A stretch of DNA of 64,000 nt from an uncultured Clostridia bacterium (GTDB lineage: Bacteria > Bacillota > Clostridia > Oscillospirales > Acutalibacteraceae). Made by a program: the position numbers and the translations under genes. Under the pieces are notes generated by a model that made no database searches, was not told the DNA's origin, and was given only the letters and a program-made list of their open reading frames with translations. The stretch spans positions 1-64,000 of the forward strand of contig CAKMIX010000002.1 in NCBI GenBank assembly GCA_927362715.1, read 5' to 3'. This document shows, one piece after another, positions 10,130 through 27,331 of this stretch. Position 1 is the stretch's first letter; each line of letters begins with the position of its first letter.

Positions 10130-10444
10130 TCAGCTTACCGCGTCCGAGACCGCGTCGCCCGCGCCCGTAACGAGATCTTCCGCAACGTCGCCCGCACCGG
10201 ACACAAGATCGCCGGCCGCATCACCTGCGTCGGAGACCGCATCGCCCACGGCGTCGCCCGCGTCTTGTGCCGCGTCGCCCACGGCGTCGCCTGCATCGGA
10301 GACCGCGTCGCCCGCGTGGGTCATCATGTCTTGTGCATCCGTCATCAAATCCGTACCCGCATTGTCGTCATTGCCGCCGCATGCCGCTAAAAACACACAG
10401 AGCACAACGGCGACCGCCGCCAGGATCCAAATGGTTTTTTTCAT
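10130..10444 (-). CDS. repetitive lipoprotein (GDAV/SDAG repeats)
   Basis: A 104-residue lipoprotein. The signal peptide MKKTIWILAAVAVVLCVFLAAC ends in a lipobox. The mature part is almost entirely repeats of GDAVxDA and GDAAGD type, predicted to form acidic amphipathic helices. An alternative upstream ATG at 10510 overlaps the ypeB stop codon, but it would add a charged 22-residue leader before the signal peptide. The ATG at 10444 with AGAGGGA upstream gives a perfect lipoprotein signal. It follows ypeB and is probably co-transcribed; a spore or germination role is inferred from context only. Confidence 0.8.
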   Translation of the reverse strand: MKKTIWILAAVAVVLCVFLAACGGNDDNAGTDLMTDAQDMMTHAGDAVSDAGDAVGDAAQDAGDAVGDAVSDAGDAAGDLVSGAGDVAEDLVTGAGDAVSDAVS

Positions 10445-10506
10445 AGTCAGTCCCTCTTTTTTACGTTTTCGGACGTCTCTATTTTTTGCCGAAAAATCTG
10501 ATTTAT

Positions 10507-11850
10507 TCATTTTGTCAAAACGCCGTCGTCGGCATATAAAAGCAGCAGGATCTCTTCCTCATAGCCCGTTTGCGTGCTGATATAGACTAAGAATTCCTCG
10601 TCGCTTTCGTTTTTGCAGTGGAATTCATAGGTGAGCACTTCCCCGCCGCTGTCGGTCGGGATCACGGCAAGGCGCGTGTCTGTGACTGTCAAAAGGGGAC
10701 TGACATTCGCCTCTGCCGCTTCGCGCGTCACAGCGGGCGCGGTATAGGTGCGCGCCTTGTGGTTCATCACATAACCGCGGCAGTCCGCCGAAAGCACCGT
10801 GCCGTCCGCGAGGCTCACACTGACCTTGATAAGGTCCGGGTAGCAGATATAGCCGTTTTCCGTGTAGGCGTAGTTGATGGTGCAAATGCCGTCGGAGACG
10901 GTGTAATAGCTTTCCTGCATGTCGGTAAACCCGCAGTGCGTCAGAAAGTCGGCGGCGTAAGTGCGCGCATCCTCATATTGAAGCGTTGCCTCGCCCACAA
11001 AGCTGCCTGAAAGCAGATACAGCAAATACCCGCCGCGCTTTGTAACGGCAACGGTCGCGTCCTCCGTCCCGAACACGTAAGCGGCGGAATTGTCCTCCTC
11101 CGTGCCGACAAAGGTCAGCGCATCTTTGTTGAGCCCCAGGATCTCCGCCGCACGCTCGTGCGCCTGCTCCTGCGTGAGCTCCTCGGCTGAGTTTAGCAGC
11201 TCGGATTCCATCTGATTGATATGATCTGAGAACGGGCCGTCATAGATGAGCGACGGATATTCCGTCAGCGCCTGCTCGGTATCCTCCATGTCGCCGGAAA
11301 GCGTGCCGATCTGTTCGGTATCCGCAGCAAGCGTGTTTTCTGCGGCGGTAAAGTCCAAAAACCCTTCGTAAAGCTGTGTGCGCATATCGGAGATCTGGGT
11401 GCTTAAGGTCTCTGCGAAATCCAAAAGCGCAAACATCTGTTGGCGTTCGTCATCGGTGATCTGCTCGCCCGCCTCCACCTTGCGGCTTAAAGACATGACA
11501 AAATCACCGACCTGTGACAGGAATTTATACGTGTTGTCAAGCCGTGTGTCCGAAAGCGGCAGAACCGCAAGGCTGCTTTTTGCCGATGTCGCCTCGCGCC
11601 AAAGCTCGGTCGCCATGGTGCCGAGCATCGGCGCGGTGTTGGCATACACGCCCTTTTGCAGATTCGTCTGCATGCTGCTTAAGGAATCGTCCAATTCTGC
11701 GAGCGCCCGTTCGCCCGAAGCGCGCAGCTGCCGCTCATACCGGTTTGCGCGAACCGTACCGGCTATGGCAAAGACGGACAGCGCAAGCACGACCGCCGCC
11801 GCAAAAGAAAAGAGCCGGATCCGGCTTCGTTTGGACTTTGGTTTCCCCAT
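10507..11850 (-). CDS. ypeB: germination protein YpeB
   Basis: A 447-residue protein with a basic N-terminus, one transmembrane helix (about 12-34, LFSFAAAVVLALSVFAIAG) and the YpeB N-terminal helical region with ASGERALAELDDSLSSMQTNLQKG and the KSSLAVLPLSD segment. Two or three C-terminal PepSY/YpeB repeats follow (LGLNKDALTFVGTEEDNSAAYVF; YCNY-type segments; tail TQTGYEEEILLLL). In Bacillus, YpeB stabilises the spore-cortex hydrolase SleB; here sleB is not adjacent. The start at 11850 follows GAGGTG. The presence of ypeB argues that the organism forms spores. Confidence 0.85.
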   Translation of the reverse strand: MGKPKSKRSRIRLFSFAAAVVLALSVFAIAGTVRANRYERQLRASGERALAELDDSLSSMQTNLQKGVYANTAPMLGTMATELWREATSAKSSLAVLPLSDTRLDNTYKFLSQVGDFVMSLSRKVEAGEQITDDERQQMFALLDFAETLSTQISDMRTQLYEGFLDFTAAENTLAADTEQIGTLSGDMEDTEQALTEYPSLIYDGPFSDHINQMESELLNSAEELTQEQAHERAAEILGLNKDALTFVGTEEDNSAAYVFGTEDATVAVTKRGGYLLYLLSGSFVGEATLQYEDARTYAADFLTHCGFTDMQESYYTVSDGICTINYAYTENGYICYPDLIKVSVSLADGTVLSADCRGYVMNHKARTYTAPAVTREAAEANVSPLLTVTDTRLAVIPTDSGGEVLTYEFHCKNESDEEFLVYISTQTGYEEEILLLLYADDGVLTK

Positions 11851-11926: not shown

Positions 11927-11955
11927 TTGCCAAAAGGGCGTTCCTCGTGTATAAT
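11927..11955 (+). promoter_or_regulatory. sigma-A promoter of the cysteine desulfurase operon
   Basis: TTGCCA (11927-11932) and a consensus TATAAT (11950-11955) with a 17-bp spacer, about 50 bp before the start codon. Confidence 0.85.
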
Positions 11956-12007: not shown

Positions 12008-13138
12008 ATGGAATGTTATCTGGACAACAGCGCGACCACAAAGCCCTGCCAAGAGGCGGTGGCTGCCGCCGTGGACGCCATGACCGAGCATTTCGGCAAT
12101 CCGTCATCTTTGCATCAAAACGGTATGGCGGCACAGCAGCTGCTCGAACGCGCGCGAAAAACGATCGCGGACAGCCTTCGCGCCGAAAGCGGCGAGATCG
12201 TCTTTACCCCGAGCGGTACGGCGGCGAACAACACGGCGATCTTCGGCGCTGTGGCCCGATACCGCAGCGGGAAGATCGTGACTTCCGCCATGGAGCATCC
12301 GAGCGTCGAGCAGTGTATGTCCGCGCTTGAAACGCGGGGGTTTACGGTCGTGCGATTGCACCCGGATAAAAACGGGCATATCACCGCCGGGCAGATCGCC
12401 GAAGCGGTAGACGAGCAAACCGTGCTTGTAAGCCTTATGGCGATCAACAACGAGGTGGGCAGCGTTTTGCCGTTTTCAGAGCTTGGACGCATCGTCCGCG
12501 CCAAGAGATCACCTGCACTGGTGCATGTGGACGCGGTGCAGGGCTTTTTGAAGCTGCCTATCGTGCCGAAAAAATGCGGCATCGATTTGTTGAGCGTCAG
12601 CGCGCACAAGGTACACGGACTTAAGGGTGCAGGGGCATTGTATGTGCGCAAGGGCGTGCGTATCAAGCCTTACTTACTCGGCGGCGGGCAGGAAAACGGG
12701 CTTTGCTCGGGCACGCAGCCCATGCCTGCCATTGCGGCGTTTGCGGCGGCGGTGCGCGCTTACGGCGACAGCACGGCGCACCTTGCCTATGTGCGCGCGC
12801 TGCGCGATAGGCTTACACAACATTTGTCAGCGCTTTCGGGCGTGCAGATCAATTCCCCGGCCGATGCGCTGCCGTATATTCTCAACATCTCGCTGCGCGG
12901 TGTGCCTGCGCAGGTCGGTGTCAACGCGCTGTCCGAACGGCAGGTCTGCATTTCGGCGGGCTCTGCGTGCTCGCGCGGGCATCGCAGTGCGGTGCTCACG
13001 GCGATGGGGCTTTCCCCGGAGCGCATAGACACGGCGCTGCGCATCAGCCTCTCGCGCGAGACGACCGAAGCCGAGATCGACGCGTGCGCGGCGGCTGTGG
13101 AGGACGTCCTCAAAACAATCGGCAAAAAAGGAACATAA
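12008..13138 (+). CDS. cysteine desulfurase (NifS/IscS family)
   Basis: A 376-residue PLP enzyme that removes sulfur from cysteine as a persulfide. Landmarks are YLDNSATT at the N-terminus, HVDAVQG, the PLP lysine in SVSAHKVHG, and the active-site cysteine in SAGSACSRG. Directly followed by thiI, this is the arrangement of a dedicated desulfurase (NifZ-like) that feeds sulfur to ThiI for 4-thiouridine in tRNA. The start has AGGAG at good distance. Confidence 0.94.
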   Translation: MECYLDNSATTKPCQEAVAAAVDAMTEHFGNPSSLHQNGMAAQQLLERARKTIADSLRAESGEIVFTPSGTAANNTAIFGAVARYRSGKIVTSAMEHPSVEQCMSALETRGFTVVRLHPDKNGHITAGQIAEAVDEQTVLVSLMAINNEVGSVLPFSELGRIVRAKRSPALVHVDAVQGFLKLPIVPKKCGIDLLSVSAHKVHGLKGAGALYVRKGVRIKPYLLGGGQENGLCSGTQPMPAIAAFAAAVRAYGDSTAHLAYVRALRDRLTQHLSALSGVQINSPADALPYILNISLRGVPAQVGVNALSERQVCISAGSACSRGHRSAVLTAMGLSPERIDTALRISLSRETTEAEIDACAAAVEDVLKTIGKKGT

Positions 13139-13142
13139 GATT

Positions 13143-14321
13143 ATGCAGGAAATCATACTCATCAAAAACGGAGAGCTCGCGCTCAAGGGGCTTAACCGGG
13201 CGACGTTTGAAAGCGTTTTGGTAAAAAATATCAAACGGCGCCTCCGAGATTTGGGACATTTCGTCATAAACCGTTCACAATCTACGATTACAATAGAACC
13301 GACGGGATCGGATTTCGATACGGATGAGGCGGTGGAACGTCTGCGCCGCGTGTTCGGCATTGCTGCATTCCAGCGTGCCGCTGCGGTGGAAAAGCGCATG
13401 GACGCGATTTTGGAAACGGCAAGCACCTATCTCCGGGAAGATCTGGCGGGCATTTCCGCGTTCAAGGTGGAGTCCAAGCGTTCGGACAAAACGTTCCCTC
13501 TGACTTCGCCGCAGATCAGCGCGGAAGTCGGCGGCAAGCTGCTGGAAGCCTTCCCACATCTGCATGTGGATGTGCATCATCCCGAAAAGATCGTCACGGT
13601 CGAGGTGCGTGAGCACGCGGCGTATATCCACTGCGACCAGCTGAAGGGCGCGGGCGGCATGCCCGTCGGCACGGGCGGCAAGGCAATGCTGCTCATTTCC
13701 GGCGGCATCGACAGCCCTGTTGCGGGCTGGATGATGTCCAAGCGCGGCATCGTGCTTGATGCGGTGCATTTTGCATCTCCCCCGTACACTTCGCCGCAGT
13801 CGGAAATGAAGGTGCACGATCTGCTCGAGCAGGTCGCACGCTATTCCGGGGACATCGGGCTTTACACCGTGCCGTTTACCGAAATTCAGGAGCAGATCCG
13901 CGACAACTGCCCGGAAGCGCTGTTCACGCTGGTGATGCGGCGGTTCATGATGCGCATTGCCGAGCGTATAGCGCGCCGCGAAAAATGTGATGCGCTCATC
14001 ACGGGCGAAAGCGTGGGACAGGTCGCAAGCCAGACCATGCTCGCCTTAGGCTGCACGGACGCCGCGGCAACACTGCCCGTGTTCCGTCCGCTCATCGGGA
14101 TGGACAAAGACGAGATCATCGTCCGCGCGCGGCAGATCGAGACGTTTGACATCTCCATCCGCCCGTATGAGGATTGCTGCACGGTCTTTACCCCGCGCCA
14201 CCCGCGCACGCGCCCGTCGCTCTCGCTTGTGGAAGCAGCGGAGCAGAAGCTCAATGTGGAAGCGCTCGTTTCCCGCGCAGCGCAGAACGCGAAATTTGAG
14301 ATCATAAGGAACGGTCGATAA
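13143..14321 (+). CDS. thiI: tRNA 4-thiouridine synthase ThiI
   Basis: A 392-residue ThiI with an N-terminal ferredoxin-like domain, a THUMP domain (about 60-165) and a PP-loop adenylation domain with SGGIDSPVAG. It lacks the C-terminal rhodanese domain of E. coli ThiI, as is usual in Firmicutes; the cysteine desulfurase partner lies just upstream. It catalyses s4U8 formation in tRNA and may also supply sulfur for thiazole. The ATG lies 4 bases after the upstream stop. Confidence 0.95.
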   Translation: MQEIILIKNGELALKGLNRATFESVLVKNIKRRLRDLGHFVINRSQSTITIEPTGSDFDTDEAVERLRRVFGIAAFQRAAAVEKRMDAILETASTYLREDLAGISAFKVESKRSDKTFPLTSPQISAEVGGKLLEAFPHLHVDVHHPEKIVTVEVREHAAYIHCDQLKGAGGMPVGTGGKAMLLISGGIDSPVAGWMMSKRGIVLDAVHFASPPYTSPQSEMKVHDLLEQVARYSGDIGLYTVPFTEIQEQIRDNCPEALFTLVMRRFMMRIAERIARREKCDALITGESVGQVASQTMLALGCTDAAATLPVFRPLIGMDKDEIIVRARQIETFDISIRPYEDCCTVFTPRHPRTRPSLSLVEAAEQKLNVEALVSRAAQNAKFEIIRNGR

Positions 14322-14322
14322 C

Positions 14323-14802
14323 ATGACGCTTGCTCAACAGGCGGTAAAACAATTAAAAGCCCGGCATAAAACGCTTGTCACGGCGGAATCGTGCACGGGC
14401 GGATGGATCGCCAAGCGCATCACCGATATTGCCGGCGCATCCGAGGTGTTCGAATGCGGCATCGTTTGCTATTCCAACCGCATCAAAACGGAATTGCTCG
14501 GCGTGCGTAAGGAAACACTTGCCGAATTCGGCGCGGTCAGCGAGCAGACCGCGCGGGAAATGGCGCTCGGTGCGCTGGATGTGTCAAAAGCGGATGTGGC
14601 GGTCGCGGTCACAGGGATCGCCGGCCCCGATTCCGACAACACGGGCAAGCCCGTGGGGCTTGTGTATATCGCCGTTGCGGACCGCACGCGCGTGGAAGTG
14701 CACGAGTACCGCAACCACTTTGCGGACAACGTCCGCGACAATAACCGCCGCGCTTCGGCGGACAATGCGCTTGCAGCTTTGGGGAGGTTCTTAGACGCAT
14801 GA
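14323..14802 (+). CDS. pncC: nicotinamide-nucleotide amidohydrolase PncC (CinA C-terminal domain)
   Basis: A 159-residue stand-alone CinA C-terminal domain. The family motif TAESCTGGWIAKRITD with the catalytic serine and the later AVTGIAGPDS are present. It deamidates nicotinamide mononucleotide to nicotinic acid mononucleotide in the pyridine nucleotide cycle. It starts one base after the thiI stop and overlaps the next gene by four bases. The SpoIID-fusion protein three genes downstream carries a degenerate version of this same fold. Confidence 0.92.
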   Translation: MTLAQQAVKQLKARHKTLVTAESCTGGWIAKRITDIAGASEVFECGIVCYSNRIKTELLGVRKETLAEFGAVSEQTAREMALGALDVSKADVAVAVTGIAGPDSDNTGKPVGLVYIAVADRTRVEVHEYRNHFADNVRDNNRRASADNALAALGRFLDA

Positions 14803-15761
14803 GCACACAAAACGAGCAGGCCCCGCGCCCGAGAAAGCGAAAAAAACAGTCCCGCTTCAGCAAAACGGCCAACCGCGTCATCACGATCGTCGCGGTTCTG
14901 GTCCTGCTTGTGTCGGGGGCGGTGTGCGTCAAGTATTTTGTCGAGCTTTACCAGAACAAAAATCAGACCGAGGAGCTTGCCGCGCTCGTGACGGAGTCCG
15001 AAGAAAACTATCCGGACGAACCGGCTTTCGTGCAGCCGAAATACCGGGAGCTTTACAACCAGAACAACGATTTCGTCGGCTGGATCACGGTGCCGAATAC
15101 CGCGATCAACCATCCCGTGATGCAGAGCGACGACAACGAGTATTACCTGCGGCGGGACTTCTATAAAAACTATCTGCGCCGCGGCACGGTGTTCATGGAT
15201 TACCGCAACGACCCGGAAAACCTGAATGTGAACACCATTTTGTACGGGCACAACTATCTGGATTCCACGATGTTTTCCGATCTGGAGAAATATAAGGACA
15301 TCGAGTTTTATAAGACTGCGCCCGTGATTGAATTCAACACGATCTACGCCGATCACAAATGGAAGGTGTTCGCCGTGTTCCTGACGACGGCGTCTCCGGA
15401 GCTTGACAACAACTATGTATTCAATTACATTTACCCGTTCATGACGGAGTCGAGCTTTGAAGAGTTTATCGACGAGGTCGCCAAGCGCAGCCTGTATGAC
15501 ACCGGCGTGGAGGTGCTGCCGACGGATAAGATCCTGACGCTTTCCACCTGCACGCGGGATATGGACATCACAAGCAAGCAGGAAAATGCGCGCTGTGTCG
15601 TGATGGCGCGGCTCGTGCGCGAGGGCGAGGACGAATCGGTGGATACGTCTCAGGCAACGGTAAATCCGAATCCGAAATATCCGCAGCTTTGGTATGACAA
15701 ATACGGGATCGAAAACCCGTATAAGGACGATGAAAAATGGTACCCGAGAGGTGAGGGTTGA
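14799..15761 (+). CDS. class B sortase (first copy)
   Basis: A 320-residue membrane-anchored transpeptidase. A basic cytoplasmic leader (RPRKRKKQSRFSK) precedes one transmembrane helix (about 26-46), then the sortase B barrel. Catalytic residues are visible: the histidine in LYGHNY, the cysteine in LTLSTC and the arginine in CVVMARLV. The last 30 residues carry a YPQ-x-WYDK-x-GI-x-NPY tail shared with the following sortase. No LPxTG-type substrate gene lies close by, so the target is unknown. Confidence 0.9.
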   Translation: MSTQNEQAPRPRKRKKQSRFSKTANRVITIVAVLVLLVSGAVCVKYFVELYQNKNQTEELAALVTESEENYPDEPAFVQPKYRELYNQNNDFVGWITVPNTAINHPVMQSDDNEYYLRRDFYKNYLRRGTVFMDYRNDPENLNVNTILYGHNYLDSTMFSDLEKYKDIEFYKTAPVIEFNTIYADHKWKVFAVFLTTASPELDNNYVFNYIYPFMTESSFEEFIDEVAKRSLYDTGVEVLPTDKILTLSTCTRDMDITSKQENARCVVMARLVREGEDESVDTSQATVNPNPKYPQLWYDKYGIENPYKDDEKWYPRGEG

Positions 15762-17224
15762 TGCCGAAAAACGAAAAAGAACATGCGGAGGATATGCTTT
15801 CCTTCGACGAGCTCAAAGATAAAGTGCAGCCGGATACGGACGAGACCGACCCTGAGGTTGCCGCGCTGCTTGATTCCCTGCGGGATATAGAACCGCCGCC
15901 CGAACCGGCACAGACGCCCGCCGAAGAGGAATCCCCCGCCGAGGCAGCGCCCGAAACGCCGAGTGAAGCGGAGAATTACAAAAGCATTTATAACGACGTG
16001 CTGCGTTCGGTGATGCAAAACGAACAGGAAAGCGAAAAGACCACCCGCAAAGCCAAGTTTTTATCGGATGAGAGCCAATTTGTCGATGTGACCGACCGGT
16101 ATGAGGGGTTCGCCGATCTGCAAAAGCAGCCCGAAGCCGATCCCCCCGCTGCCGCAGCACCGGCGGAAGCGACACGGGAAACCGAAGCAAAAGCGCAAAC
16201 CGAAACGGAAGAAGCGCCCGCCGAGGAAAAGCAGTACCGGACTTTTAATGAGATTTTCAAAAGCGGGCTGCGCAAAATTTTCCCGAATAAGCGCGACACC
16301 GTCGGCGAAGGGATCCGCAAGGTGATCGTCGATCTGTCTGTGCTCGCGCTCGTTGCCTGCGGCGTCTATTTCGGCGTTTACGCCTATCAAAGCCATGCTG
16401 CAAAAGCGCAGCAGGCAGAGATCACCGGGCAGATCATTGCGGAGGATACCGTTGACAGCGAGAGCGATGTGTGGGCGGAATTCTTCGCGCAGTATCCCAA
16501 TATCCAGCTTCCCGAGGGCATGATGGCAAAATACGCCTATCTGTATGCGATCAATCAGGATCTGGTCGGCTGGATCCGGATCCCGAATTCCATCGTCGAT
16601 GTGCAGGTGGTGCAAAGCGAGGAAAACGGCGAATACCTGAAAAAAGATTTTTACGGCAATTACAGCCGCTACGGCTGCCCGTATATGGACTACCGCAACG
16701 ATCCGAAATACCTCGGGCAGAACACCATTATTTACGGGCATCATATGAGCGACGGGCTGGTGTTCGCCGATCTCACCAAGTACAAGACCATAGAAGGCTT
16801 TCAGGAGTCTCCGGTCATTCAGTTCGATACGCTGTACCGCAGCTACACCTTTAAGGTGTATGCCGTGCTCATCACAAACAGCCAGGCGGACGATGATAAC
16901 GGGTATATCTTCAACTACACCGTGACGGACTTCGGCTCCGATGAAAAATTTATGGAATATATTGCGGCAGTGGATGAGCGCAAGCTGTATACGACCGGCG
17001 TGGACATTCAGCCCGGCGACAAGCTTTTGACACTGCAAACGTGCACCTATGAATTCTCCGACGCACGCTTGGTCGTCATCGGCAGGATGGTGCGCGACGG
17101 CGAGAGCACGTCGGTGGACACGAGTCTGGCCGTGGAAAATGCTTCGCCGCGCTACCCGCAGGCGTGGTATGACAAGCAGGGGATCACGAACCCCTATGCG
17201 GACGCTGAAAAATGGATGCCGTAA
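15761..17224 (+). CDS. class B sortase with long cytoplasmic extension (second copy)
   Basis: A 487-residue sortase B paralogue. Before the transmembrane helix (about 192-210) it has a 190-residue acidic, Pro/Glu-rich cytoplasmic head. The catalytic histidine (IYGHHM), cysteine (LTLQTC) and arginine (LVVIGRMV) are intact. The ATG overlaps the stop of the first sortase (TGATG), with GAGGTGAGGG upstream, so the two are translationally coupled. The C-terminal tail YPQAWYDKQGITNPYADAEKW matches that of the first copy. Confidence 0.9.
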   Translation: MPKNEKEHAEDMLSFDELKDKVQPDTDETDPEVAALLDSLRDIEPPPEPAQTPAEEESPAEAAPETPSEAENYKSIYNDVLRSVMQNEQESEKTTRKAKFLSDESQFVDVTDRYEGFADLQKQPEADPPAAAAPAEATRETEAKAQTETEEAPAEEKQYRTFNEIFKSGLRKIFPNKRDTVGEGIRKVIVDLSVLALVACGVYFGVYAYQSHAAKAQQAEITGQIIAEDTVDSESDVWAEFFAQYPNIQLPEGMMAKYAYLYAINQDLVGWIRIPNSIVDVQVVQSEENGEYLKKDFYGNYSRYGCPYMDYRNDPKYLGQNTIIYGHHMSDGLVFADLTKYKTIEGFQESPVIQFDTLYRSYTFKVYAVLITNSQADDDNGYIFNYTVTDFGSDEKFMEYIAAVDERKLYTTGVDIQPGDKLLTLQTCTYEFSDARLVVIGRMVRDGESTSVDTSLAVENASPRYPQAWYDKQGITNPYADAEKWMP

Positions 17225-17252: not shown

Positions 17253-19364
17253 ATGGATATGAAACTGCTCGCATTGACGGCGGGGGAGGAGCACGCACAT
17301 CTGCTGGTGCGCATCTCCGGCACGCTCAGCGGGTTTAGCGATACGGATACGGCGTTTGCAACGTATCCGACGCTCAAAACGCTGCTGCCCGCATTTGCCG
17401 AGGCGCTGAAAAAACAGGGTGTGATCGTGCTCGCCGTGGACGGCGCGAAGTACAATGCGATCCGCACTAAACTGTGCGCGGCGCTGTCGCTGGCGACGGT
17501 CGAAGATCGGGCGCTTTATGAACGCTTGTCCGAAAATACGGCGCTGCCGCCCGAGGAGATCGAACAGATCGCCCGCGTGCCGAAAAACGCCGCGCTGTTC
17601 CCGAATTCGGACGGTCTTTATACGGGCCTTGCGGTGGAAAAGGGCAAACAGACCATCGTGTTTTTGCCGCTGGAAGAAGAAAGCCTTACGCATGTGCTCA
17701 AAAACGGGCTGGTGCCGTATCTGATGCGCAAATCGGTCAAGGCGGAGAGCGCAGCGCCCGAAAAGCATGAGATGCCTGCACTCGAAGTGTCTGCCGCCGC
17801 CGGTGAAGTGGTACGGCGTACGGTGAATCTGCTGCGTGAAAACAATGCTACGGTCGCCGTAAGCAGCACCCCGAGCGCGCAGATCATCCGTTCACTCGGC
17901 GCAAACACGCCGGACTTTGAAACGTTCTTCCTGTTTACACCCCATGTCGAGGACAAGGGCGATTACAGCATGACCGACTACGCCGCGCTGCTGGCAAAAT
18001 CCGCCAAGGAGCTTTCGGGTGCAACGTTCGGTGCGTGCATTTCCGATGTGTGTGACGCCGAGGGCGGCACGTATGTCTGCGTCACGGTGGCGGATGACAA
18101 GACCGCCGTGGTGCGCAAGCTCTACAAGGAGGACGACGAGACCGAAAACAGCTTCCTGCACGACGCCGCCGAGGAGCTCGTGGAGCTGATCGGCGAAAAA
18201 GCGGCGGGCAAGGGTATGGTCGGCATTGAGGTCGCGGACGCCGGAAATGAGAAAAGCGGCGGCGGCTTCCTTTCAAGGCCTGCCGGCAAGGTGACGATGT
18301 CTGTTATTGCGCTGGTGCTTGCGGCAGCGGTCACGGTGGGTTGTATCTTCTTTGTGCGCGAACGCCGCGCGCGCGAAGCGCAAAATACCACGCAGCCGCC
18401 TATCGTGACGGAACAGCCCGACACGACCATTGCGCCGGTCGTGACGGACACGGTGACGATCTCGGAGTTTATTTATAATGAAATGCTGAACGGCGTGCAG
18501 GAAACACCAGCCGAAACGACCACCGCCAATTCAGACGGCGTCGCGATCGACACGACCGGCGGCAGCACCGCCACGGGCGACGAGATCCCGACGGAAATGA
18601 TCGTCAACGGCAGGACGCTCGACGCCAAAGAGGCAGTCGCCCGCATGATCGAGGCGGAAATGGACAGCACCTACAATACCGAAGCGCTCAAGGCGCAGAC
18701 GGTGGCGATATACACCTATCTCAAATACCGCAATACGAATTGGAAGATCACGGGCGTTACGCTTGCCGACGACTACAGCGAAGAAGTCTACAATGCGGTA
18801 CGCGCGGTGTTCGGGGAATATCTGAGCTTCAACGGCGCGCCGGCGTTTACGCCGTTCTTCCGTCTTTCGGCAGGCAGGACCGCCGCCTGTGAGACGGTGT
18901 TCGGTACGAGCTATGCGTATCTGCGCGCGGCGGACAGCATTTCCGACCGCACGGAGGACGGGTACTTAACACAGCTCATCATCCCCGCAGACGAGATCCG
19001 GGAGCTCGTAGAAGCCTATGACGCGAGCATCACGCTCGGCGAGGAAACCGCCGACTGGCTGGAGGTAACGGAGCACGACGGCGCGGTGGATACGGGCACG
19101 GGCTACGTGCACACCATCCGTGTCGGCGACCGCGAGATTTCGGGCAGGGAGTTTGTAGACGTGGTCATGGCGGGGAAAAACCTGCCGTCCGTGTGCTTCT
19201 CGGTGATGTACCAGAGCGAAACCAATGAGTTTCTGTTCGAGGTCTATGGCATCGGCTACGGCGTCGGCATGAGCCAGCGCGGCGCGGACCGCATGGCGGC
19301 AACGGGCGCGGAATACACGGAAATATTGTCCCGCTATTACAGCGGTACACAGCTTACGGTTTAA
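17253..19364 (+). CDS. degenerate CinA-like domains fused to membrane helix and SpoIID/LytB domain
   Basis: A 703-residue protein with three parts. Residues 1-165 resemble the N-terminal MoCF-like half of CinA (SGTLSGFSDTDTAF in place of SGGLGPTKDDLT; PEEIEQIARVPKNAALFPN; TIVFLPLEEESLTHVLKNG). Residues 185-340 resemble the CinA C-terminal (PncC) half (TVAVSSTPS in place of the AESCTGG motif; LSGATFGACISDVCDAEGG; YVCVTVADD). Catalytic motifs in both halves are lost. A transmembrane helix at about 346-369 leads to a Thr-rich linker and a SpoIID domain (about 450-703) with AVARMIEAEMDSTYNTEALKA and GYGVGMSQRGADRMA. The SpoIID part should act on peptidoglycan outside the membrane. Architecture reading is from pattern recognition, not a search. 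Confidence 0.8.
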   Translation: MDMKLLALTAGEEHAHLLVRISGTLSGFSDTDTAFATYPTLKTLLPAFAEALKKQGVIVLAVDGAKYNAIRTKLCAALSLATVEDRALYERLSENTALPPEEIEQIARVPKNAALFPNSDGLYTGLAVEKGKQTIVFLPLEEESLTHVLKNGLVPYLMRKSVKAESAAPEKHEMPALEVSAAAGEVVRRTVNLLRENNATVAVSSTPSAQIIRSLGANTPDFETFFLFTPHVEDKGDYSMTDYAALLAKSAKELSGATFGACISDVCDAEGGTYVCVTVADDKTAVVRKLYKEDDETENSFLHDAAEELVELIGEKAAGKGMVGIEVADAGNEKSGGGFLSRPAGKVTMSVIALVLAAAVTVGCIFFVRERRAREAQNTTQPPIVTEQPDTTIAPVVTDTVTISEFIYNEMLNGVQETPAETTTANSDGVAIDTTGGSTATGDEIPTEMIVNGRTLDAKEAVARMIEAEMDSTYNTEALKAQTVAIYTYLKYRNTNWKITGVTLADDYSEEVYNAVRAVFGEYLSFNGAPAFTPFFRLSAGRTAACETVFGTSYAYLRAADSISDRTEDGYLTQLIIPADEIRELVEAYDASITLGEETADWLEVTEHDGAVDTGTGYVHTIRVGDREISGREFVDVVMAGKNLPSVCFSVMYQSETNEFLFEVYGIGYGVGMSQRGADRMAATGAEYTEILSRYYSGTQLTV

Positions 19365-19392: not shown

Positions 19393-20409
19393 ATGGCAAT
19401 TCTGGTAACAGGCGGCACGGGCTTTATCGGCTCGCACACCTGCATCGCACTCACTGAGGCGGGGTATGACGCCGTCATCGTGGATAACTACTACAATTCC
19501 AGTCCCAAGTCGCTCGAACGCATCAACGAGCTGTGCGGCAAGGAACTGAAATTCTATGAGTGTGATATCCGCGACCGCGAGGGGATGACGCGCGTTTTCA
19601 AGGAAAACAAGATCGACGCGGTGATCCATTTCGCGGGGCTCAAAGCGGTGGGCGAATCCTGCCAAAAGCCGATGGAATATTATGACAACAACATCGGCGG
19701 CACGCTGACGCTCTGTGAAGTCATGCGCGACTGCGGCTGCAAAAACATCGTTTTCAGCTCATCCGCGACTGTGTACGGCATGCACAACGTCTCTCCGCTC
19801 AAGGAAACCATGCCCGCAGGCGGCACGACCAACCCCTACGGCACGACCAAATACATGATCGAGATCATTTTGGAAGACATTTACAAGGCGGACAATGACT
19901 GGAATGTGACACTGCTTCGCTATTTTAACCCGATCGGGGCGCATAAAAGCGGCAGAATCGGTGAAAATCCGAACGGGATCCCGAATAACCTTATGCCCTA
20001 CATCACGCAGGTCGCAGTCGGCAAGCTGCCTGAGCTTTCGATCTACGGCGACGATTACGACACCAAGGACGGCACCGGCGTGCGCGATTACATCCATGTG
20101 GTCGACCTCGCGGAGGGGCATGTCAAGGCGCTCGACAATATTTTGTCCGGCAAACGCGGTGTACAGATCTTCAACCTCGGCACCGGCGTCGGGTACAGCG
20201 TTTTGGACATCGTGCATGCCTTTGAAGAAGCAAACGGCGTAAAGATCCCGTATAAGATCGTCGGCAGACGCCCCGGCGACATCGCCACCTGCTACTCCGA
20301 TCCCACCAAGGCGAAAGAGGTGCTCGGCTGGCAGGCAAAGCGCGGCCTTGCCGAGATGTGCGAGGACTCATGGCGCTGGCAGAAGCAGAATCCCAACGGA
20401 TTTGAATAA
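19393..20409 (+). CDS. galE: UDP-glucose 4-epimerase
   Basis: A 338-residue short-chain dehydrogenase-type epimerase. The NAD-binding GGTGFIGSH lies at the N-terminus, the catalytic SSATVYG and YGTTK (Tyr-x3-Lys) are intact, and the C-terminal part has the GalE signature NLGTGVGYSVLD and GRRPGD. It interconverts UDP-glucose and UDP-galactose for surface polysaccharides or galactose use. GGAGGAATGAACT precedes the ATG. It stands between the SpoIID-fusion gene and lemA without other galactose genes. Confidence 0.95.
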   Translation: MAILVTGGTGFIGSHTCIALTEAGYDAVIVDNYYNSSPKSLERINELCGKELKFYECDIRDREGMTRVFKENKIDAVIHFAGLKAVGESCQKPMEYYDNNIGGTLTLCEVMRDCGCKNIVFSSSATVYGMHNVSPLKETMPAGGTTNPYGTTKYMIEIILEDIYKADNDWNVTLLRYFNPIGAHKSGRIGENPNGIPNNLMPYITQVAVGKLPELSIYGDDYDTKDGTGVRDYIHVVDLAEGHVKALDNILSGKRGVQIFNLGTGVGYSVLDIVHAFEEANGVKIPYKIVGRRPGDIATCYSDPTKAKEVLGWQAKRGLAEMCEDSWRWQKQNPNGFE

Positions 20410-24961: not shown

Positions 24962-27331
24962 ATGTATCAGGTCATCAAGCGAGACGGCAAACATGTGGAT
25001 TTTGACCTCTCCAAGATCACGGAAGCGATCCGCAAGGCGTTTGAAGCGCAGGAACGGCAGTACAATATGGACATCATCGAGCTGCTGGCGCTCAAGGTCA
25101 CCGCGGATTTTGAGAAAAAGATCAAGGACGGTCTCATCGGCGTGGAGGACATTCAGGACAGCGTTGAGGCAGTGCTCATCGCGGCGGACTATGCCGACGT
25201 GGCGAAAGGTTATATCCTTTACAGAAAGCAGCGCGAAAAGATCCGCAATATGAAGTCCACCGTGCTCGATTACAAGGAGATCGTGGACAATTACGTGCAT
25301 CTGACAGACTGGCGCGTGAAGGAAAACTCCACTGTGACCTATTCCGTCGGCGGCCTGATCTTAAGCAACTCCGGCGCGATCACGGCGAACTATTGGCTTT
25401 CGGAGATCTATGACAACGAGATCGCCGAGGCGCACCGCAACGCAGACATCCACATCCATGACCTGTCCATGCTCACGGGCTACTGCGCGGGCTGGTCGTT
25501 AAAGCAGCTTATCCAGGAGGGTCTGGGCGGCATCCCCGGCAAGATCACCTCTTCGCCCGCGTCGCACCTTTCGACGCTGTGCAACCAGATGGTCAACTTC
25601 CTCGGCATCATGCAGAACGAATGGGCGGGCGCGCAGGCGTTCTCCTCCTTCGATACCTACCTTGCCCCATTTGTAAAGGTTGACAACTTGTCATACAAGG
25701 AAGTCAAGCAGTGCATCCAGTCCTTCGTCTACGGCGTCAATACGCCCAGCCGCTGGGGCACGCAGTCGCCGTTTACGAACATCACGCTGGACTGGACAGT
25801 CCCCGCGGACCTTGCCGAGCTCAACGCGATCGTCGGCGGCAAGGAAATGGACTTCAAATACAAAGACTGCAAAAAAGAGATGGACATGGTCAACAAGGCG
25901 TTCATCGAGATCATGGTCGAGGGCGACGCCAACGGCCGCGGCTTCCAGTACCCCATCCCGACCTATTCCATCACCAAGGACTTTGACTGGTCCGAGACCG
26001 AAAACAACAAGCTCCTGTTTGAAATGACCGCGAAGTACGGCACGCCGTATTTCTCGAACTACATCAACAGCGATATGGAGCCTTCGGACGTCCGTTCCAT
26101 GTGCTGCCGCCTGCGTCTGGATCTGCGCGAACTGCGCAAGAAATCCGGCGGTTACTTCGGCAGCGGCGAAAGCACCGGCTCCGTTGGCGTGGTCACGATC
26201 AACATGCCGCGCATCGCATATCTCTCGAAAACCGAGGAAGAATTCTATAAGCGGCTCGATCGCATGATGGATATTTCCGCGCGTTCTTTGAAGGTCAAGC
26301 GCGACATCATTTCGCGGCTTTTGGACGAGGGACTGTATCCGTACACCAAGCGCTACCTCGGCACGTTCAACAACCACTTCTCGACCATCGGGCTTATCGG
26401 CATGAACGAAGCCTGCCTGAACGCCGGCTGGATCGGCGAGGATTTAAGCCACGAGCGTGCACAGCAGTTTACAAAGGATGTGCTCAACCACATGCGCGAG
26501 CGCCTTTCCGATTATCAGGAGCAGTACGGCGACCTGTATAACCTTGAGGCGACGCCCGCAGAGTCTACGACCTACCGCCTTGCGAAGCACGACGTCGCGC
26601 GTTATCCCGACATCATTACGGCGGCGGGCGACTGCGGCACCCCGTACTACACGAACTCTTCGCACCTGCCGGTGGACTTCACCGCCGACATTTTCGAGGC
26701 GCTGGATATCCAGGACGATCTGCAGACGCTCTATACCTCCGGTACGGTGTTCCATGCCTTCCTCGGCGAAAAGCTGCCGAGCTGGCAGTCTGCGGCGAAT
26801 CTGGTGCGCAAGATCGCCGAGAACTACAAGCTGCCCTATTACACCATGTCGCCGACCTACTCCGTGTGCAAGGAGCACGGCTACATCACGGGCGAGCATT
26901 ACACCTGCCCCGAGTGCGGCGGTGTGACCGAAGTGTACAGCCGCATCACCGGCTACTATCGTCCGGTGCAGAACTGGAACGACGGCAAGGCGGAAGAATT
27001 CAAGCATCGCAAGCTGTATGACATTGCGAACTCGCATCTGCGCCGTCACGGCGTCCCTGCGGAAAGCGCGGAAGCTCCGTCGGCAGCCGCAGAAAATAAA
27101 GCGGGCGAGCTGCTTCTGTTCACCACCAAGACCTGCCCGAACTGCAAGCTTGCGAAAGCGGCGCTCGACAAGGCGGGCGTAGCCTATACCGTGATTGACG
27201 CGGAGGAAAACGCCGCGCTCACAGACAAATACGGCGTGCGCCAGGCGCCGACGCTGGTGTCGGTCGCGGGCGACAGCTTTGAGACTTTTGCGAACGCCTC
27301 CAACATCAAGGCCTTCGCGGAAAGGGCATAA
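24962..27331 (+). CDS. nrdD: anaerobic ribonucleoside-triphosphate reductase with C-terminal glutaredoxin-like domain
   Basis: A 789-residue class III reductase making deoxyribonucleotides without oxygen. An N-terminal ATP-cone domain (MYQVIKRDGKHVDFD, residues 1-90) precedes the catalytic barrel, with LSTLCNQMVNFLG, MCCRLRLDLRE and LYNLEATPAESTTYRLA. A zinc-binding segment (VCKEHGYITGEHYTCPECG) leads to the glycyl-radical site RITGYYRPVQNW (Gly about 664). From about residue 714 a glutaredoxin/thioredoxin-like domain is fused, with FTTKTCPNC (cysteines about 725 and 728) and the cis-Pro segment RQAPTLV. trxB follows three bases later. The fusion suggests thioredoxin-type rather than formate-driven reduction. 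Confidence 0.96.
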   Translation: MYQVIKRDGKHVDFDLSKITEAIRKAFEAQERQYNMDIIELLALKVTADFEKKIKDGLIGVEDIQDSVEAVLIAADYADVAKGYILYRKQREKIRNMKSTVLDYKEIVDNYVHLTDWRVKENSTVTYSVGGLILSNSGAITANYWLSEIYDNEIAEAHRNADIHIHDLSMLTGYCAGWSLKQLIQEGLGGIPGKITSSPASHLSTLCNQMVNFLGIMQNEWAGAQAFSSFDTYLAPFVKVDNLSYKEVKQCIQSFVYGVNTPSRWGTQSPFTNITLDWTVPADLAELNAIVGGKEMDFKYKDCKKEMDMVNKAFIEIMVEGDANGRGFQYPIPTYSITKDFDWSETENNKLLFEMTAKYGTPYFSNYINSDMEPSDVRSMCCRLRLDLRELRKKSGGYFGSGESTGSVGVVTINMPRIAYLSKTEEEFYKRLDRMMDISARSLKVKRDIISRLLDEGLYPYTKRYLGTFNNHFSTIGLIGMNEACLNAGWIGEDLSHERAQQFTKDVLNHMRERLSDYQEQYGDLYNLEATPAESTTYRLAKHDVARYPDIITAAGDCGTPYYTNSSHLPVDFTADIFEALDIQDDLQTLYTSGTVFHAFLGEKLPSWQSAANLVRKIAENYKLPYYTMSPTYSVCKEHGYITGEHYTCPECGGVTEVYSRITGYYRPVQNWNDGKAEEFKHRKLYDIANSHLRRHGVPAESAEAPSAAAENKAGELLLFTTKTCPNCKLAKAALDKAGVAYTVIDAEENAALTDKYGVRQAPTLVSVAGDSFETFANASNIKAFAERA

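Follow-up and report, generated by a model that had tools for sequence, protein, structure and literature searches.

CinA is usually regarded as a soluble salvage enzyme. In the window, i.e. the whole stretch of 64,000 nucleotides analysed here, a single unbroken open reading frame joins an apparent CinA relative to a hydrophobic segment and a SpoIID domain, raising the question of what the CinA-like half is and what it may do at the membrane. A sequence-only reading of this frame had proposed the order MoCF-like domain, PncC-like domain, transmembrane helix and SpoIID, and both the length of the frame and this order were borne out by the frame itself and by profile and structure evidence (Table 1). 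The same continuous frame was found in other genomes, so the proposed fusion is not refuted, and a one-off fusion or an assembly join is ruled out by its occurrence in the genomes of relatives.

Table 1. The fusion gene, its parts and the presumed operon around it (window coordinates).
Feature	Position	Strand	Basis
Sigma-70-like promoter, 11/12, before the first gene	11927..11955	+	Match to consensus only; region has 9 sites of this kind vs 4.6 expected
Cysteine desulfurase (NifS/IscS-like), first gene of presumed operon	12008..13138	+	Pfam Aminotran_5; context
ThiI tRNA sulfurtransferase	13143..14321	+	Pfam/NCBIfam; context
Genuine PncC, single-domain NMN amidohydrolase, AESCTGG intact	14323..14802	+	Pfam CinA E 1.1e-54
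Class B sortase 1, TLSTC intact	14799..15761	+	NCBIfam sortase_srtB E 3.5e-57
Class B sortase 2 with intact TLQTC; helix preceded by a long N-terminal tail	15758..17224	+	Pfam Sortase above cut-off
Pseudo-CinA/TM/SpoIID fusion gene	17253..19364	+	Continuous ORF, 703 aa
MoCF/COG1058-like domain, residues 1-163, without catalytic residues	17253..17741	+	hhalign split 98.7; Foldseek 3kbq_A; alignment columns
PncC-like domain, residues ~180-320, without catalytic residues	17790..18212	+	hhalign split 98.1; Foldseek 5kvk; columns
Predicted transmembrane helix (hydrophobic segment), residues 350-368	18300..18356	+	Hydropathy 2.68
SpoIID main segment, residues 446-654, Glu469 codon 18657-18659	18588..19214	+	Profile and structure-sequence match
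SpoIID C-terminal GxGVGMSQ...YY segment, residues 659-702, canonical order	19227..19358	+	Segment comparison
NAD-dependent epimerase (GalE-like), next downstream	19393..20409	+	Pfam Epimerase E 7.4e-60

CinA ancestry and catalytic positions of the N-terminal half

Pfam recognised SpoIID as the sole domain of the fusion protein (E 1.5e-7), and the NCBIfam CinA models matched far under their family cut-offs (NF001813 at residues 88-165, E 3.5e-4; NF002291 at residues 47-160, E 3.6e-3). A search with residues 1-367 against 200 genomes of the window's family (Acutalibacteraceae in GTDB) gave matches in 104 of them, a mix of fusion-type relatives and genuine CinA, and the alignments were built from 33 fusion-type N-terminal parts, hereafter pseudo-CinA, and 14 genuine CinA proteins from 40 fetched family regions, which were the best and the long-frame matches, so that frequencies among them are not those of a random sample. 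Comparison of the two profiles gave a colinear match over 332 columns (probability 99.5, pairwise E 3.9e-22), with 0.3 and 0.5 for control profiles of the unrelated operon neighbours ThiI and NifS. When the query was split, residues 1-166 matched MoCF (98.7) and residues 180-322 matched PncC (98.1), each its own domain only, while the controls (crossed pairs, KH, ThiI pieces and reversed profiles) stayed at or below 4.8. The in-register resemblance to CinA that the sequence-only reading had noticed is thus upheld by the colinear alignment and the domain split. The KH domain of CinA was absent between the two domains of the fusion (hhalign KH probability 0.1, 4.8 and 2.2). All these hhalign figures are single pairwise comparisons and not database searches, the database-level test being structural.

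An AlphaFold2 model of residues 1-346, made with ten relatives (pLDDT 80.9, pTM 0.49), was searched with Foldseek against 350,542 PDB chains. The top four matches were Thermus CinA (E 2.6e-12 to 2.1e-11), followed by further CinA structures with TM values by target length of 0.72 (3kbq_A), 0.71 (5kvk) and 0.67 (2a9s_B), and a CinA fold is therefore predicted for this half. The whole-chain TM by query length was just 0.37-0.38, a value that we read as due to the lack of KH and to an uncertain placement of the two domains relative to each other. An unrelated fold for residues 1-340 is ruled out by the split profile test and the Foldseek search. The predicted assignment of residues 1-163 and ~180-320 to a two-domain CinA relative without KH is thereby confirmed. 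In the window genome, the Pfam MoCF model PF00994 had no match at E 0.01 (it was present in 14 of 14 control genomes), and the sole match to PF02464 was the upstream PncC.

The loss of GGLGPT and AESCTGG, also claimed from the letters, proved general: both GG.GPT and AESCT were absent in all 36 pseudo-CinA proteins of the fetched loci, and genuine CinA frames in the same loci carried AESCT in 21/21 and GGLGPT in 19/21 cases. Single residues were followed by mapping the columns of the 33 pseudo-CinAs onto CinA positions through the profile alignment, with the roles of these positions taken from the available text of PMC4246079 and PMC3855486. Asp74, the first Asp of the DD pair, is replaced by Tyr or Phe in 33/33, Glu155 by Arg in 21/33, and no Asp occurs at the second position of the pair among the twelve residues listed. 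The PGPPxE Glu is kept in 0/33, the GTE Glu in just 5/33 at a mixed position, and the VGDN Asp in 6/33, with Pro in the window protein. At the NMN site, Arg391 is replaced by Glu in 30/33, the YxNxxK lysine aligns with a gap, the Tyr is kept in 13/33, Ser276 is Thr in 27/33 and Thr350 is Ser or Thr in 30/33. Retained residues include Gly132 (29/33), Gly136 (30/33) and Pro150 (30/33), which form the pocket framework, and Ala334 (31/33). Some catalytic positions therefore carry new conserved residues, a pattern that random decay would not give, and the pseudo-CinA half is well supported as a putative maintained pseudoenzyme, the term already used in the sequence-only reading.

The contrary explanation, a decaying CinA duplicate that was fused by chance and is under no selection, could draw on the low identity of relatives to the window protein (16-30%) and on YfaY and YdeJ of E. 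coli, inactive CinAs that the available part of PMC3855486 discusses in terms of accumulating mutations and gene decay. A profile search bears on this directly. With the 33-sequence profile, 53 of the 200 family genomes matched at E 1e-16, and 44 of the 200 were called as holding a pseudo-CinA at at least 120 bits (our own cut-off, read from the match list). The match crosses stop codons in three of the 44 (G013, G056 and G174), as decay would have it, but the other 41 carry no internal stop. Together with two catalytic positions whose replacement residues recur in 30-33 of 33, and with a gene context retained across genera, this makes decay very improbable.

The pocket could instead have been turned to sensing, as the sequence-only reading had suggested for pyridine nucleotides: the altered pocket would bind a nucleotide, NAD-derived or other, and a signal would cross the membrane to control SpoIID. 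The framework glycines and Pro150 are kept, other pocket positions carry conserved new residues, and the mostly Thr-substituted Ser276, the Ser/Thr at Thr350 and the partly kept Tyr indicate that parts of the NMN pocket persist; CinA domains have also been proposed to move in the reaction cycle (PMC4246079, in the text available). Yet the Mg/ADP-ribose residues are mostly gone, and at the NMN site the lysine is gapped and the arginine turned to Glu. We consider a sensor rather unlikely, all the more so in view of loci where no SpoIID was found (see below).

Predicted membrane helix and SpoIID domain

By our own helix rule, 33/36 pseudo-CinAs carry a hydrophobic segment C-terminal to the CinA-like part, so that the transmembrane segment placed between CinA and SpoIID in the sequence-only reading stands as a predicted helix. 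Lys and Arg, counted over the 15 residues before and after the helix, are more frequent before it in 29/33, equal in 2 and more frequent after it in 2. Three proteins (L049, L072 and L073) were left out of the first topology table and profile, which covered 33 of 36; the charge count was redone on 36. Several relatives (e.g. L054, L055, L058, L063 and L067) stop at most 10 residues past the helix. The charge bias and these short chains fit an N-terminal half that lies in the cytoplasm. The window protein itself is one of the two in which positive charges are more numerous after the helix (4 vs 2), and its topology is therefore assigned by way of its relatives and its SpoIID part. The fusion would accordingly be a single-pass membrane protein with the pseudo-CinA half in the cytoplasm and the SpoIID half outside.

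The SpoIID/LytB domain was confirmed over the curated cut-offs of both databases (Pfam SpoIID 32.4 vs 23; NCBIfam SpoIID_LytB 105.4 vs 83.3, E 4.8e-30). Clostridioides difficile SpoIID (5txu/5i1t) matched the window sequence at E 1.2e-23 (5txu) and shares the catalytic Glu, its Glu101 corresponding to Glu469; the available text of PMC6221140 describes Glu101 as required for activity and sporulation, and two zinc ligands as needed for in vitro activity. The C. difficile protein differs in that its residues ~131-153, to which that text assigns the zinc ligands, have no counterpart in the two aligned stretches of the window protein, and in that it lacks the extra pseudo-CinA half. Among operon-linked SpoIIDs the catalytic Glu is kept in 26/27. 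The exception is a same-genus relative (L034, 7520-9808, minus strand), in which this Glu is lost and the protein carries a 73-residue Thr-rich tail. The outer half is thus probably a SpoIID-type glycan-strand-cleaving domain, with hydrolase activity predicted from its sequence. That it is the sporulation SpoIID is ruled out, since the sporulation equivalog TIGR02870 scored 114.2 against a cut-off of 234.75 and contig C6 of the window genome carries another SpoIID-type gene of canonical order.

Comparison with relatives revealed a rearrangement of this domain. With A denoting the main segment, which holds the catalytic Glu, and B the C-terminal GxGVGMSQ...YY segment, the canonical order A-B was observed in the window protein, L034, four sortase-fused forms and 16/16 non-operon SpoIID-type proteins examined. 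The permuted order B-A was observed in 26 rows, or 21 distinct ones after dropping twice-fetched loci (L075-L077, L080 and L082), with L115 of genome G138 as the 22nd (L035-L046, L057, L060, L062, L065, L068-L070, L078, L081 and L115). The permuted SpoIID occurs both fused to pseudo-CinA, as in L115, and as a separate gene, and the catalytic Glu is retained in 21/21 permuted domains aligned for it. Duplication instead of permutation is ruled out by the presence of one copy of each segment per permuted protein. An AlphaFold2 model of permuted L082 (pLDDT 80.9, pTM 0.68) matched a single PDB entry under E 0.001, SpoIID 5i1t (E 4.5e-6, TM 0.50-0.52). The permutation constitutes a second result beside the fusion, in that the domain ends have moved while single copies of both segments are kept.

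A tree of 42 of 49 SpoIID rows, leaving out six twice-fetched loci and the fragment L057, clustered the operon SpoIIDs with one other row, the long-branched L107. Weakly supported branches place the canonical window pair (itself at 100/98) among permuted sequences, and an AU test did not reject that the permuted form arose once (p 0.234), so the canonical order of the window may be either original or restored. When 245 genomes of the class were searched with the permuted SpoIID profile, 194 had a match, and among the matches listed none ran from the front segment to the end of the profile; one match, in G556, started inside the front segment and was of canonical order when read out.

Operon context and fusions of the same parts

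The genes from NifS to GalE in the window overlap or lie at most 28 bases apart, and the genuine PncC that the sequence-only reading had placed three genes upstream was confirmed there. The second sortase scored slightly below the NCBIfam sortase_srtB cut-off (E 9e-45, 152.8 bits vs 153.75). The fetched regions typically run from NifS through ThiI, CinA or PncC alone and one or two SrtB to pseudo-CinA with or without SpoIID, sometimes followed by GalE. Counted over the fetched stretches of 35 loci with pseudo-CinA (the window and 34 others), PncC/CinA is present in 30/35, a class B sortase in 34/35, a SpoIID-type ORF in 22/35 and GalE in 11/35, although the GalE of L072 is far off on the other strand. 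PncC/CinA was not found in five fetched stretches, three at contig ends (L040, L066 and L067) and two elsewhere (L064 and L069), and the sortase was not found in that of L067. SpoIID was not found in the fetched stretch of 13/35 loci, some of them at contig ends, which argues that a same-chain signal to SpoIID, as a sensor would require, cannot be the general function. One locus (L039, fetched again as L077) contains a tandem pair of pseudo-CinA genes, one with SpoIID and the other with a long low-complexity outer tail.

The same parts are joined in other ways in relatives. In seven fetched loci (L047-L053), CinA is joined via a membrane helix to a class B sortase domain, with AESCT in 7/7, and GGLGPT, YxNxxK and TLxTC each in 5/7; all three CinA motifs are present in 5. 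In L049 and L051-L053, a sortase-like domain is fused to SpoIID, and the TLxTC motif was not found in the sortase-like domains of these fusions. The coupling to cell-wall remodelling that the sequence-only reading had proposed is thus supported at the level of fusion and operon context.

The simplest reading of these arrangements would be that the pseudo-CinA half serves as a mere membrane anchor or scaffold for SpoIID, with co-transcription as the sole tie to CinA/PncC and the sortases. CinA and PncC structures are dimers according to the available text of PMC4246079 and PMC3855486, which would suit a scaffold, and a row of genes may include unrelated ones; indeed, with NifS and ThiI in the same row, neighbourhood alone is no proof of a shared task. 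Against this, the CinA-sortase and sortase-SpoIID fusions tie together exactly these parts, and pseudo-CinA is kept where SpoIID is a separate gene (e.g. L062 and L065) or was not found nearby (e.g. L054, L055 and L058). A mere anchor is therefore regarded as unlikely.

We tentatively favour, at somewhat less than even chances, a docking or regulatory role of the pseudo-CinA half, as the cytoplasmic subunit of a sortase and wall-hydrolase module. If the dimer habit of known CinA is kept, pseudo-CinA may pair with itself or with the PncC/CinA of the same operon; such pairing would bring the class B sortases and the SpoIID domain together at one site, where local wall cutting could then help the sortase-dependent attachment of surface proteins. 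We infer the pairing, its partners and the link to surface anchoring from the CinA homology and fold, the patterned catalytic replacement, the conserved context, the CinA-sortase and sortase-SpoIID fusions and the kept catalytic Glu. Points against docking are the charge bias of the window protein, the loss of Glu in L034, the missing zinc-ligand stretch, the motif gaps in L047-L053 and the presence of NifS and ThiI in the gene row. A broader version is improbable: a family-specific transmembrane device in which inner CinA-type proteins, active or dead, would steer outer sortases and glycan-cutting enzymes, so that pyridine-nucleotide or ADP-ribose status might control surface-protein anchoring, with the glycan-cutting domain circularly permuted in evolution.

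Distribution and comparison with known systems

Of the 44 family genomes with pseudo-CinA, 15 have it in frames of at least 700 aa, all 15 with SpoIID in frame. At the level of the order, 12/197 genomes matched the profile at E 1e-10. Two of these belong to the window's family (the window genome, and G050 with a frame of 1064 aa), and the ten others have frames of 420-479 aa, with one of 1099; confinement of pseudo-CinA to the window's family is likely. Nine records of relatives are metagenome-assembled genomes labelled Oscillospiraceae, Ruminococcaceae, Clostridia, 'uncultured bacterium' or Candidatus Onthovicinus, the last placed by NCBI in Oscillospiraceae, and the sources of the relatives' assemblies include goat cecum and rumen and water-deer cecum. 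In PHROGs there was a single weak match (E 0.027), and among plasmids 11 records matched, the five listed all being matches to the SpoIID part.

Thermus thermophilus CinA (4ct8), an NMN deamidase and ADP-ribose pyrophosphatase, shares with the fusion the order of MoCF and PncC, the predicted folds and a colinear profile. It has the KH domain, GGLGPT and AESCT, whereas the fusion is without these, has the YxNxxK lysine gapped, and carries a membrane helix and an outer domain appended. Inactive CinAs as such are already known from E. coli, namely YfaY and YdeJ (PMC3855486, available text). YfaY (lineage 2.2.1.2) is likewise a two-domain CinA, reported as non-functional and with block P-III gone; in the available text of that paper neither a membrane helix nor a wall enzyme was seen mentioned for it, and the likeness to YfaY is drawn from description only.

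Among 5.39 million open-access papers, a body of literature with most subscription papers and preprints outside it, none was found on SpoIID with circular permutation, none paired SpoIID with CinA, none dealt with CinA, sortase and SpoIID together, class B sortase with CinA or a sortase/SpoIID gene cluster, and none treated CinA as a pseudoenzyme. Like class B sortase loci in general, the window holds sortases with intact TLxTC, here two directly upstream of the fusion; the difference is that they are tied to CinA and SpoIID, and we know of no described sortase locus of such make-up. A bacterial family of gut and rumen assemblies thus appears to maintain, next to a genuine CinA, an inactive one tethered to the membrane, together with sortases and a putative wall hydrolase, and the varied fusions of these parts point to a connection between CinA-type proteins and the display of surface proteins that can be tested.

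Three further observations were made in the same genome. A sortase domain lies in an open frame of 1644 codons (L113, G000:C3:32643-33149). In the window, a small lipoprotein-like ORF on the minus strand (10130-10510), which adjoins a YpeB gene and had no Pfam match at E 0.001, consists mostly of degenerate GDAVSDA-type repeats, and the plus strand at 24962-27331 encodes an anaerobic ribonucleotide reductase with a C-terminal glutaredoxin-like domain.
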